Positions 7,291-58,571 of a stretch of 59,377 nt of DNA are shown here, piece by piece. The notes under the pieces were generated by a model. The model ran no database searches and was not told the DNA's origin. It saw nothing but the letters and a program-made list of their open reading frames with translations. The translations under genes and the position numbers were made by a program. Origin of the DNA: Paracoccaceae bacterium (lineage in GTDB: Bacteria; Pseudomonadota; Alphaproteobacteria; Rhodobacterales; Rhodobacteraceae); assembly GCA_027484915.1 (NCBI GenBank), contig JAIXSA010000041.1, positions 1 to 59,377 on the forward strand, written 5' to 3'. Within the stretch, counting starts at the first letter, position 1. The number at the start of each line of letters is the position of its first letter.

Positions 7291-7367
7291 AAAGCTTAAG
7301 GCTTCCTGAATGCCCACAGCCAACCAGTTGATTTTCCTGGCGTCACAAACCGCGCCACGCGTGGCGC
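7291..7367. repeat. Structured intergenic repeat, copy A
   Basis: First of three related elements in this window (the others are 48763-48839 and 57813-57885, the last inverted). It opens with AAAGCTTAA, contains CCTGAATGCCCACAGCCAA and TTGATTTTCCTG, and ends in the perfect 16-base palindrome GCGCCACGCGTGGCGC (7352-7367), seven bases from the stop codon of the tetR gene. Confidence 0.75.
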
Positions 7368-7373
7368 CCCCGC

Positions 7374-7985
7374 TCACCGGTCCGGCGACAACAGCCCCAG
7401 CCCCCGCAGGTAGATCCCGATCCCGGTTTCCAGCAGGTCCTCCGCCGGCCACGGCTGCGGTCCCCCGTTCCCCCGCAGGAACAGCTCCACCACCCCGTGA
7501 CTGACCGCCCAGACATGGGCCGAGATCATCGAGGCGGGCGGCCGCCGCCCCTCCGGCAGACCCCGGACGAGCCCCTCCGCCGCCCGATCCATCGTCGCCC
7601 TCGCCTTGGCCGAGACCTGCGCGAGGTCCGGATGTTTCCCCGGCTGCAGCCCACTCTCGAACATCGCCTGGTAGTGGCCGGGATACTTCCTGGCAAATGC
7701 CAAGTAAGCCCGCCCCGTCGCCTCGAACGCCGTCAGCGGCGACGGCCGCCCCTCATCATAAGCGTACTCCAGCAGCGCCGCGAAGATGTCGAACCCCTGC
7801 CGCGCAACCTCGGCCAACAGATCATCCCGCCCCGCAAAATGCCGGTATACCGCCGCCGGCGTCACATCCGCCGCCTTCGCCGCCTCGGACAGGGTGAAGC
7901 CCTGCGGCCCCTTCTCGGCGATCAGCTCCAGCGCCGCCTCGACCAGCGCCTGCCGCAGATTGCCGTGGTGATACCCTCGCTTCAT
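7374..7985 (-). CDS. TetR/AcrR family transcriptional regulator
   Basis: A 203-residue TetR-type repressor. The N-terminal helix-turn-helix is '[19 protein letters not shown]' with the hallmark '[15 protein letters not shown]', about residues 28-55; the C-terminal ligand-binding domain is of the type '[14 protein letters not shown]' seen in WHG-domain TetR proteins. The start ATG overlaps the stop of ppk2 by ATGA, so it is the second gene of a two-gene operon and may respond to a signal linked to polyphosphate or nucleotide state, although TetR genes often control a different neighbour. Confidence 0.88.
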
Positions 7986-8848
7986 CCCCGCAGCTTCGGC
8001 CCGCCGCAGATCTTGCCGTCGACCTTGCCCACCGCCGCCGCATCCTTCCCCGCGTAATCGACAGCCGACAGGATCGTCTGGATCGCCGCAATCCGCGCGC
8101 GCTTCTTGTCGTCGGACAGGATCACCGTCCAGGGTGCGTATTTGAAATGGGTCTTGTCCATCGTCTCGTCGATGGCCGTGCAGTAGTCGTCCCACTTGCC
8201 CAGGCCGTCGATGTCGATCTGGGAGAGCTTCCACTGCTTCAACAGGTCCCCCTCCCGGTCGAGGAAGCGCTTCAGCTGCTCGGCCCGGCCCACCTCCAGC
8301 CAGATCTTCAGGAAGATGATCCCCTCATCGACGATCATTTGCTCGAATTCCGGCAACTGCCGGAAGAATTTCGCCCGCTGCTCCGGCGTGCAGAAGCCGA
8401 ACACATGCTCGATCATCGCGCGGTTGTACCAGCTGCGGTCATAAAGCGCGATCTCGCCCTTGGCCGGGAACCAGTCGACGTAGCGCTGGAAGTACCATTG
8501 CTGGCTTTCCCTCTCTGTCGGCTTGGACAGGGCCACCACATAGGCTTGCCGGGGGTTCAGGTTCTCGGTCACCGCCTTGATCGTCCCGCCCTTGCCGGCG
8601 GCATCGCGGCCCTCGAAGACCACGACCAACCGCTGACCTGTGGCTTTTAGACCCGCCTGCATCTTCGCAAGCTCGATCTGCAGCGCCTCCATCTGCGCGT
8701 CGTAGACCTTGCCCTTCATCTCCTCCCGGTAGGGATAGGACGCGGTCATGATCTCGTCCTTGCCGGCCTTCTCGATGGCCTTGCGCACCTCCTTGGGAGC
8801 GCCTTCGCGCAAATAGCGGCTGATCGCGCCGTCGAAGGGTAGGGGCAT
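7982..8848 (-). CDS. ppk2: Polyphosphate kinase 2 family protein
   Basis: PPK2-type kinase of 288 residues that transfers phosphate between polyphosphate and nucleotides. Walker A '[10 protein letters not shown]' lies at residues 79-88 and the Walker B/lid region '[10 protein letters not shown]' at about 135-144; the conserved 'WYFQRYV' and 'FLKIWLEV' segments are present. The single-domain length and sequence fit class I PPK2, which mainly phosphorylates nucleoside diphosphates, but class and nucleotide preference need a biochemical test. AGGAGG precedes the ATG. The gene is coupled to the following tetR gene by a four-base overlap. Confidence 0.92.
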
Positions 8849-48762: not shown

Positions 48763-48839
48763 AAAGCTTAACACTTCCTGAACGTCCGCAGCCAAGCCCT
48801 TGAAATCAAAGGGCTTGGAAAAGTGCCCACGCGCGGGCA
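48763..48839. repeat. Structured intergenic repeat, copy B
   Basis: Second copy of the repeat family. It opens AAAGCTTAAC, contains CCTGAACGTCCGCAGCCAAG, then a perfect ten-base hairpin (CCAAGCCCTT at 48792-48801, complement 48809-48818) and ends in the near-palindrome TGCCCACGCGCGGGCA (48824-48839), two bases short of the stop codon of the SYLF gene, the same placement as copy A beside the tetR stop. Confidence 0.75.
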
Positions 48840-48841
48840 GC

Positions 48842-49399
48842 TTAGGGAATGATCCGGGTATACTTGATCCCCGCCAACGAGGCCCCGGCAATCAGCCCCT
48901 GCTGCCCGAAGACCATCGCGATCACCTCGTCCAGCTCGGTCGTCTGCTTGCCGATGCTGGCCCCCTCTTCCGGCGAGGCATAACGGATGTCCGCCCCTGC
49001 CGCCCAGCCCGAGGACCGCCGAAACTTCTCCAGCGCCTCGGGGGACATGAAGAACAGGGTATGGGCGTACTGCTGCGCCCCGATCTGCAACCCGAACGAC
49101 CCCTTGGCCGCAGAATAATAGTCGACCGTCACCCCCTGGATCCGCAGCGCGCCGCGCCCGAAGGCCCCGCCGAACCCCGCGCCGACTTCGGTCATCAGGG
49201 GCATGTACAGGACCCCGGACGCCCGGCTCGCCAGGTCCCGGGTGCCTGGATACTGGGTGAAGAGGAAGTCCTCGGTCGCATCGACCCGCGCCTCGATCTG
49301 GCCCGCACCGTTGGAGCCGATCCCGTTGTTGCAGGCTGCCAGCCCGAAGGCCCCCGCACCCAGCAACAGCCCGCGCCGCGTCATCATCATGTCGGTCAT
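48842..49399 (-). CDS. SYLF/YSC84 domain lipoprotein
   Basis: A 185-residue exported protein. The N-terminus combines a twin-arginine-like 'TRRGLLLGAGAFG' with a lipobox 'GLAAC', so Cys23 would be lipidated after possible Tat export. The remainder is a SYLF (YSC84) domain, seen in 'GVLYMPLMTEVGAGFGGAFG', 'YYSAAKGSFGLQIGAQQYA' and 'GLIAGASLAGIKYTRI'. SYLF domains bind phosphoinositides in eukaryotes; the bacterial role is unclear. It is a single gene. Confidence 0.85.
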   Translation of the reverse strand: MTDMMMTRRGLLLGAGAFGLAACNNGIGSNGAGQIEARVDATEDFLFTQYPGTRDLASRASGVLYMPLMTEVGAGFGGAFGRGALRIQGVTVDYYSAAKGSFGLQIGAQQYAHTLFFMSPEALEKFRRSSGWAAGADIRYASPEEGASIGKQTTELDEVIAMVFGQQGLIAGASLAGIKYTRIIP

Positions 49400-55926: not shown

Positions 55927-57744
<1,818 letters not shown>

Positions 57745-57812
57745 TGGGGTCCGTCCTATAGGGTTGGCGCGGCCTTACAGGGTTTTCCCGACGCTGGCCA
57801 GAGGGGCTGCGG

Positions 57813-57885
57813 TGCCCACGCGTGGGCAGCTTTCCGGCTACAGGAAAATCAAGGACTTGGCTGCGGGCATTCAGGGTTTGTTAAC
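57813..57885. repeat. Structured intergenic repeat, copy C (inverted)
   Basis: Third copy, in reverse orientation. Reading on the minus strand it shows GTTAACAAACCCTGAATG, then CCCGCAGCCAAG, then TTGATTTTCCTG, and ends in the perfect palindrome TGCCCACGCGTGGGCA (57813-57828). It keeps the same 12-base distance between the TTGATTTTCCTG box and the palindrome as copy A. It lies between the typA start and the YitT-family stop. Confidence 0.75.
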
Positions 57886-57899
57886 CGCCTACCTGCCGC

Positions 57900-58523
57900 T
57901 CAGGCGGCGATATAGCGGTCGCGGCGATGGTTGACGGCGAGAAACAGCGAAAAGACCGCTGCGCCGAGGAAGCTGTAGGCGAGCGTGTCGAACGGCATCA
58001 CCAGCGCAGCGAGCCCGAAGATCACCACATCGGACAACAGCTGCGCATGGCCTGCGGGAAAGCCGGTGCGGTCCTGAAGTTCGATCCAAAGGACCGAAAG
58101 CCCGCCGAAGCTGCCGCCGTGGCGGATTGCGGCCAGAGCCGCAATCCCGAAGAGAAGTCCAAAAAGGATGGCGGCCACGGCGGGTTCGATGCGGCCAAGC
58201 TCGATCCAATGCGGCAGCACCGCCACCAGCCCGGACAGCGCCGCCGTGGTGACCAACGTCTTCAGGGCAAATGCCGCGCCCATCCGCCGCCAGGCAAGGC
58301 CCAGGAAGGGCAGGGTCACGGCGAAATAGACGGCAGGGAAGGGCAGGTCGGTGACATGGGCGATCAGCACCGCAATGCCGGTGGTCTGCCCGGTGACAAA
58401 GCCCATATGCGTCAGGATGTGCATCCCGAAGGCGGCCATGATGACCCCGAAGCCAATGCCTTGCGCATCGTCGACGGCACTGTGTCGGGGCCGGTCGGAG
58501 ATCTGGTCGGGACGGTCGGGCAT
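57900..58523 (-). CDS. YitT family membrane protein
   Basis: A 207-residue inner-membrane protein with about five spans; 'GIGFGVIMAAFGMHIL' begins the first and 'GFVTGQTTGIAVLIAHVT' the second, followed by 'FGGLSVLWIELQDRTGFPAG'. This fits the YitT/DUF161 group, whose function is unknown (a transport role has been suggested). ATG at 58523 with GGAG is chosen over an upstream start. It diverges from the RibD-like reductase. Confidence 0.78.
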   Translation of the reverse strand: MPDRPDQISDRPRHSAVDDAQGIGFGVIMAAFGMHILTHMGFVTGQTTGIAVLIAHVTDLPFPAVYFAVTLPFLGLAWRRMGAAFALKTLVTTAALSGLVAVLPHWIELGRIEPAVAAILFGLLFGIAALAAIRHGGSFGGLSVLWIELQDRTGFPAGHAQLLSDVVIFGLAALVMPFDTLAYSFLGAAVFSLFLAVNHRRDRYIAA

Positions 58524-58571
58524 CGGCGGCTCCGCTAGGATATATGGGTCATATGTGCTGACGTAAACCAA

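Follow-up and report, generated by a model that had tools for sequence, protein, structure and literature searches.

A family of small palindromic repeats numbers ~105–130 copies in a genome of Tabrizicola in the wide sense. The element is a fixed module of ~75–78 bases that combines a hairpin palindrome with an IHF-type box. Copies are inherited vertically, in place, and the layout is kept while the letters drift to a mean identity of 0.59. The family is read here, with confidence that is about evenly balanced, as a vertically kept composite 3′-end element, in which an mRNA-terminal hairpin would be joined to an IHF-type DNA site.

Three copies (A, B and C) are found by weight matrix in the window, that is, the whole 59,377-nt stretch of contig JAIXSA010000041.1 that was analyzed. 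Whole-element matches refer to R1, a sequence-only model for which 25 of an initial 30 loci were used, window copies included. The features of the three copies are as follows:

7294..7369, + strand: copy A, whole element (R1 match, E 2.8e-16)
7296..7310, + strand: copy A, TTAA-N7-TGAA pair (TTAA at 7296-7299), read from the sequence, with spacing as in the consensus
7321..7333, - strand: copy A, perfect IHF-type consensus AATCAACTGGTTG, from a pattern scan of the window
7352..7367, unstranded: copy A, palindrome GCGCCACGCGTGGCGC, separated by 6 nt from the stop codon of a TetR-type gene (7374-8234, - strand; Pfam)
48766..48841, + strand: copy B, whole element (R1 match, E 6.7e-20)
48768..48782, + strand: copy B, TTAA-N7-TGAA pair (TTAA at 48768-48771), read from the sequence
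48793..48805, - strand: copy B, imperfect IHF-type box (CAA-N4-TTGAAA on the plus strand), read from the sequence and not a perfect match
48824..48839, unstranded: copy B, imperfect palindrome TGCCCACGCGCGGGCA, separated by 2 nt from the stop codon of a Ysc84-type gene (48842-49399, - strand; Pfam)
57812..57886, - strand: copy C, whole element (R1 match, E 2.5e-19)
57870..57884, - strand: copy C, TTAA-N7-TGAA pair (TTAA at 57881-57884), read from the sequence
57847..57859, + strand: copy C, perfect IHF-type consensus AATCAAGGACTTG, from a pattern scan of the window
57813..57828, unstranded: copy C, palindrome TGCCCACGCGTGGGCA, 68 nt upstream of the typA start (typA at 55927-57744, - strand; Pfam)
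57900-58571, - strand: yitT, the upstream neighbor of copy C, ending 15 nt before the TTAA of copy C (Pfam)

The original prediction had described three intergenic elements in this window, and reading of the sequence confirms all of them at their places: behind the end of the TetR-type gene, behind the end of the Ysc84-type gene, and in the gap between yitT and typA. It was also right that 12 bases separate TTGATTTTCCTG and the palindrome in both A and C. The middle of copy B (TTGAAATCAAAG) is unlike those of A and C, and its palindrome is imperfect. Neither the IHF-type box nor the anchoring to stop codons formed part of the prediction.

In the orientation of copy A, the element consists of a TTAA-N7-TnAA pair, CGCCCRCAGCCAA, four loosely kept bases, TTGAWWTC, a loose AAA spacer and the 16-base palindrome, with CGCCCRCAGCCAA running into a CAA-N4-TTGAWW box. 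The second half of the TTAA pair reads TGAA, CTAA or TAAA in nearly all copies of this genome. Two palindrome words prevail here, TGYCCACG-CGTGGRCA and GCGCCRCG-CGYGGCGC, together with mixed ones in which the TGY/GCG order occurs 16 times and the opposite order twice. The palindrome center is one base shorter in 5 of 103 copies. While the fixed distances are partly a product of the ungapped scan, the best matches of the gapped R1 model span positions 2–77 without large shifts. The consensus holds one palindrome per element and, by eye, no visible terminal inverted repeats; it has no paired inverted palindromes, and few of the retrieved loci hold two elements. For instance, single stretches of 3–8 kb at L031, L156 and L254 contain two elements each, so copies can lie close together.

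A search of the whole genome for further copies, which the original prediction had named as its check, returned at least 134 R1 matches at E ≤ 1 (best 1.7e-20), mostly in intergenic DNA. This search scored 150 candidates, so that the true count may exceed 134, and a few weak matches are palindromes that had been counted before, matched from their reverse side. Allowing up to three mismatches, the core pattern occurs at 84 places in the genome compared with nine for the reversed pattern. Approximately 110 of the 134 places were retrieved (30 loci plus 80 stretches), and the ungapped weight matrix recognized 105 distinct copies in them, 103 of which scored ≥44 bits; later counts rest on these 103 copies unless stated otherwise. 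The same matrix gave nothing above 0 bits on three shuffled windows. Since six of the 110 retrieved loci lack an ungapped copy at 28 bits, a few copies are probably partial or carry small insertions. Only three of 5253 pairs of copies reach an identity of 0.85, and the spacers of copies within this genome are 0.40 identical. Taken alone, the palindrome core CCRCGCGYGG is not enriched in the window (three matches, all inside elements, with 2.8 expected).

Of all helices tested across the 103 copies, none covaries as strongly as the palindrome, with a z of 6.5 for five pairs and 4.0 for the next axis. For its three outer pairs, 192 of 309 cases match, compared with 131.3 expected from shuffled halves (none of 5000 shuffles was as high). 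Comparison between species is the better test: among 33 ortholog pairs, drawn from 24 places of this genome, some of them set against several species and thus not all independent, both arms had changed in 20 (in three of which the difference stems partly from a one-base shift), one arm in six, and neither in seven. The outer arms of these pairs contain 43 compensatory positions and 20 one-sided ones, and when right arms were exchanged between loci in 2000 trials, compensatory positions averaged 13.1 and never exceeded 29. The selected pairing claimed originally is thus borne out by the covariation and by the excess of compensatory change, but not by the number of perfect palindromes, which at 21 of 103 is not above the 17.9 expected from the halves.

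In 20 species the palindromes behind the Ysc84 gene include TGTCCAC-G-GTGGACA, TGCCCGCG-CGTGGGCA, GTGACCGCG-CGCGGTCAC and CCTGTCCACG-CGTGGACAGG; some of them pair poorly (G029, G031), and the stems of G031, G029 and G023 were placed by eye. Roughly ten of the 20 orthologs have a shorter center. Because the center can be one base shorter, a hairpin suits the palindrome better than a dimer site. Single-sequence RNA folding of copies A, B and C is mostly unremarkable, with z of −2.7 for the plus strand and −1.4 for the minus strand of B, and −0.6 to 0.8 for the other four. A second stem, formed around the IHF-type box in the middle of the element, catches the eye in copy B and some orthologs; it was considered and rejected, as its axis shows no covariation among the 103 copies. 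Middle stems of ≥7 bp are slightly enriched, occurring in six of 103 copies (mean of 2.0 and maximum of 5 in 40 shuffles).

Placement relative to genes differs between the two ends of the element. Genes were called with a crude codon model trained on the window, plus a stricter stop-codon test, and the positions given here are therefore those of gene ends and not of mapped transcript ends. Of the 103 palindromes, 62 fall between −12 and 15 nt past the stop codon of the gene reading into the element, 48 of these at 0–4 nt, compared with nine copies whose TTAA end is equally close to a gene end. This location fits two of the labels originally suggested, namely "REP-like" and "3′ UTR structure". 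No recognized gene end occurs near the palindrome in ~38 of the 103. The element lies most often between convergent genes (39 of 104 copies vs. 7 of 43 gaps in the window), and 17 of 104 copies, including copy C, lie 39–100 nt before a start codon. In the sense of the incoming gene, the hairpin is often followed by GNTTT(T)C: a TTT is present within 10 nt past the hairpin in 60 of 103 copies and a TTTT in 28, and the T count is 3.17 there vs. 1.79 on the other side. The hairpin is GC-rich, but a simple terminator scan did not call copy B. One copy (L078, 1540-1617) sits directly before an alphaproteobacterial tmRNA gene (1616-1970, Rfam RF01849); since its palindrome abuts the predicted 5′ end of the tmRNA, this copy may overlap the tmRNA promoter.

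The box in the middle of the element conforms to YAA-N4-TTGATW, which corresponds on the opposite strand to the IHF consensus WATCAANNNNTTR. The full consensus is matched by 52 of 103 copies, all at one offset, and the YAA-N4-TTGA core by 85 of 103; about one-third of the boxes read TTGAA, a weaker match. Perfect consensus sites number 81 in this genome, compared with 12 for the reversed pattern, and 52 of the 81 are held by the element. Both perfect sites of the window fall in copies A and C (0.24 expected; three of 100 shuffles reach two). Relatives with few copies have 26 (G026), 33 (G027), 37 (G013) and 12 (G002, incomplete) perfect sites. A high number of IHF sites does not need the element, because 66 (G032), 35 (G033) and 124 (G034) were counted in genomes from other genera that lack R1 matches. 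The box is thus a predicted IHF site.

Vertical inheritance is evident at many places. For example, 24 of the 30 top copies of G010 and G001 occupy the same place as a copy of this genome (G000), and the other six have no counterpart among the places retrieved. Spacers are 0.69 identical between orthologs. The Ysc84 gene adjoining copy B was found in 30 of 32 genus genomes, and in 20 of these 30, deep branches included, an element follows its stop codon in the right orientation (matrix scores of 4 to 91, with the low ones judged by eye).

The yitT locus of copy C provides a view of empty sites. Of 28 loci, seven carry an element at equal distance, five have typA as neighbor but are empty, and 16 have another neighbor and are not comparable. 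The empty sites (G001, G020, G022, G024 and the more distant G026) measure 65–66 nt from the yitT stop to the typA start (75 nt in G026) vs. 157–162 nt when filled, amounting to a clean presence/absence of ~92 bp. Given that G001, G020, G022 and G024 form one branch (support 0.90) among filled ones, in a branch order taken from a small two-gene tree, clean loss is the more likely event and gain the less likely one. No target duplication is readable at this one locus with empty sites, where the species have strongly diverged. There were no empty sites among the loci already retrieved, because nearly all of these had been chosen for holding an element; loci taken by their neighboring gene did yield them. 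The yitT matches of G015, G016, G017, G024 and G030 contain one or two stop codons within the alignment, and a second copy, ~50% identical and mostly adjacent, occurs in about half of the genus genomes.

Within the genus, R1 matches at E ≤ 0.01 were found in 31 of 32 genomes. Counts range from 0 in G002, 2 in G026, 3 in G027 and 6 in G013 to between 20 and >70 in most others, at most 77 matches per genome having been scored; the four low counts may reflect either loss or another palindrome word. The model also gave one weak match each in two of 29 genomes of other genera and, at E ≤ 1e-4, matches in 14 of 295 genomes of the family, two of them in this genus. A second model, R2, was built from the part left of the palindrome in 34 copies of six genera, and at E ≤ 0.01 it matched 35 of 149 genomes, eight of them with ≥5 matches. 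In total, 12 genera carry the element in numbers, Tabrizicola sensu lato included, with ~295 genomes sampled from the family.

Genera whose palindromes differ still have the CAA-N4-TTGAWW box and the TTAA pair. Palindromes of other genera include TGTCCCACGCGTGGGACA, GCGTCCGAGCTCGGACGC, GGTCCACGCGTGGACC, GCGTCCCACGGTGGGACGC, GTGTCCCATCGTGGGACAC and CCCTGTAACACAGGG, based on three to six copies in ten genera and one copy in G077. The ACGCGT core proposed at the outset is consequently not general, as other genera have, e.g., CCACCGTGG, CGAGCTCG, CATCGTG or CTGTAACACAG. The most deviant dialect found is that of G190 (L229–L233), which joins the same left part and box to a short hairpin of other sequence (CCTGTAACACAGG). 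At the places compared within the genus, the GCGCC word occurs mostly in G001, T. thermarum and R. calidifons, and the TGCCC word mostly in G010, bin.65 and X2_MetaBAT.20. As these two sets differ at the same places, words tend to change by lineage, in place, and the common descent of orthologs is still visible in the spacer (0.69 vs. 0.40) despite the change of word. Four genomes of the family (L205, L207, L215 and L216) have a similar string, CAAGCCATTGATATTGACTCGG, with neither TTAA pair nor palindrome; it is probably a separate, conserved promoter-like motif. Copy B had no match among plasmid records, and copies of two other genera matched two records and one record, respectively. In the best such match, plasmid pLA6_002 (Paracoccaceae bacterium La 6), the element is flanked by ves and hutU, and its palindrome side faces the hutU end.

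Several known systems resemble the element in part. It shares with REP/BIME sequences the character of a high-copy, intergenic palindromic unit (103 distinct copies), but it is neither a REP/BIME nor an ordinary MITE by definition, because there is no Y1_Tnp domain in 32 genus genomes, no inverted pair of palindromes and no visible terminal inverted repeat. The Y1_Tnp/RAYT domain (PF01797) was found at E ≤ 1e-5 in none of 32 genus genomes, compared with five of 14 control genomes. REP/REPIN sequences with RAYT (PMC2817692) likewise form >100 palindromic intergenic copies, often near stop codons; the element differs from them in the lack of Y1_Tnp/RAYT in those 32 genomes, in its single hairpin, and in its long vertical inheritance with compensatory change. 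E. coli supplies working models for the function: REPs located ≤15 nt from a stop codon stall ribosomes (PMC12306157), and BIMEs are described as barriers to supercoils (PMC6907758). Also among them are the RIB/RIP elements (IHF-binding BIME-1), which other papers, citing Boccard and Prentki (1993), describe as dispersed palindromic repeats that carry an IHF site and lie where transcription units end. In RIBs, two inverted REPs flank the IHF site, whereas here a single palindrome lies on one side of a predicted IHF site and the TTAA-N7-TnAA pair on the other. On the best reading the element would work like RIB/BIME-1, but it is not a member of that family.

The Correia/NEMIS repeats of Neisseria are also small repeated intergenic units, and their long form has an IHF site; they possess terminal inverted repeats and target duplications, in contrast to the element, in which none were recognized (PMC2229807). 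DNA uptake sequences resemble the element in having lineage-specific words and in the association of inverted pairs with terminators (PMC3630211), but they run to thousands of copies, compared with about a hundred copies of a long, rigid element here. An uptake role was rejected: the half-word TGCCCACG occurs as a single site six times in the window vs. 4.0 expected and is not over-represented. Rfam yielded no family at gathering score in the window and none at E ≤ 1 in eight loci of five genera. Literature searches with the sequence strings and titles gave no description of the element among open-licence papers, and one may exist elsewhere. As a palindromic 3′-end repeat with an IHF-type site, the family belongs to a known kind and is unusual in its dialects, its long maintenance in place and its lack of a RAYT domain.

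On the composite 3′-end reading, whose parts on RNA function, IHF binding, termination, mode of spread and cause of the dialects we infer from sequence, the hairpin would form at the mRNA end on the strand of the incoming gene, mostly 0–10 nt behind the stop codon. Most likely it would cause weak intrinsic termination, block 3′ exonucleases, or slow the final ribosome. The remaining 50 bp should act as DNA, since they lie downstream of the hairpin. Set in a rigid frame with the TTAA-N7-TnAA pair, the IHF-type box would probably be bent by IHF into a compact complex that could halt RNA polymerase or mark a gene boundary, most often between convergent genes. Copies presumably spread long ago as ~92-bp units and are now inherited in place, their letters drifting while boxes, spacing and pairing stay. 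The reading is favored by the position behind stop codons, the T-rich stretch past the hairpin, the selected pairing, the IHF-type box at one offset, the vertical inheritance and the presence/absence of ~92 bp. Against it count the ~38 copies with no gene end near the palindrome, the 17 before start codons, the terminator scan at copy B, the mostly unremarkable folds, the low share of perfect palindromes, the TTGAA boxes, the many IHF sites of genomes that lack the element and the crude gene calls. A plain terminator would not explain why there are one or two hairpin words per genome. These may reflect either a word-specific factor, as in the neisserial uptake dialects (PMC3630211), or a copying process that homogenizes the hairpins. 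A tentative extension, on balance unlikely to hold, would make the words dialects of a fast-evolving, sequence-specific factor. Together with IHF, and without a REP transposase, this factor would act on about a hundred gene ends to set transcript ends or chromosome boundaries, and a shift in its specificity would cause both arms to change in place.

Other explanations divide the same evidence differently. The copies could be remnants, without host function, of a non-autonomous mobile repeat of the MITE or REPIN kind that was moved in trans, with IHF aiding transposition and gene ends being favored. The >100 dispersed copies, the clean presence/absence of ~92 bp at one locus and the strong variation in copy number within the genus (0 to >70 matches) are what such a repeat would leave behind. 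This origin is nevertheless doubtful: there was no recent burst, given the mean identity of 0.59 and the three of 5253 pairs at ≥0.85, orthologous places are kept, pairing is maintained by compensatory change, and the Y1_Tnp/RAYT domain (0/32 genus genomes), terminal inverted repeats in the consensus and a readable target duplication at the one empty site are all lacking.

Regulatory DNA sites offer a different kind of alternative. A dimeric regulator or chromosome organizer on the palindrome might form a nucleoprotein complex with IHF, leaving the RNA hairpin incidental. Few and lineage-specific words would be expected of a protein with changing specificity, the spacing between palindrome and IHF-type box is rigid, and the mixed palindromes (TGY/GCG, 16 vs. 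2) resemble two half-sites. Yet a center one base shorter, as in 5 of 103 copies and ~10 of 20 Ysc84 orthologs, would turn the half-sites against each other, and anchoring to the stop codons of incoming genes points to RNA, which leaves a purely double-stranded site distinctly improbable. Very improbable indeed is a CtrA-type site, in which the TTAA-N7-TnAA pair would be a CtrA box and the element would control neighboring promoters. The CtrA motif, TTAA-N7-TTAA (PMC9437464), does have the spacing of this pair, and a few copies of other genera (L166, L170 and L176) contain it exactly; the 17 of 104 copies that precede start codons and the one before the tmRNA gene would also suit such a role. 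However, the window contains no exact motif, the second half of the pair is almost always TGAA, CTAA or TAAA in this genome, and the commonest setting is that between convergent genes (39 of 104).

Why palindromic repeats persist in bacterial genomes is a long-standing question, studied mostly in genomes with a RAYT transposase. In the present family, about a hundred copies per genome stay at the same gene ends across the genus, with no RAYT domain found. If the function of the composite 3′-end element is real, the family would be a simple system in which to ask whether IHF and a 3′ hairpin define transcript ends, and it would also let one ask what enforces a genome-wide word.
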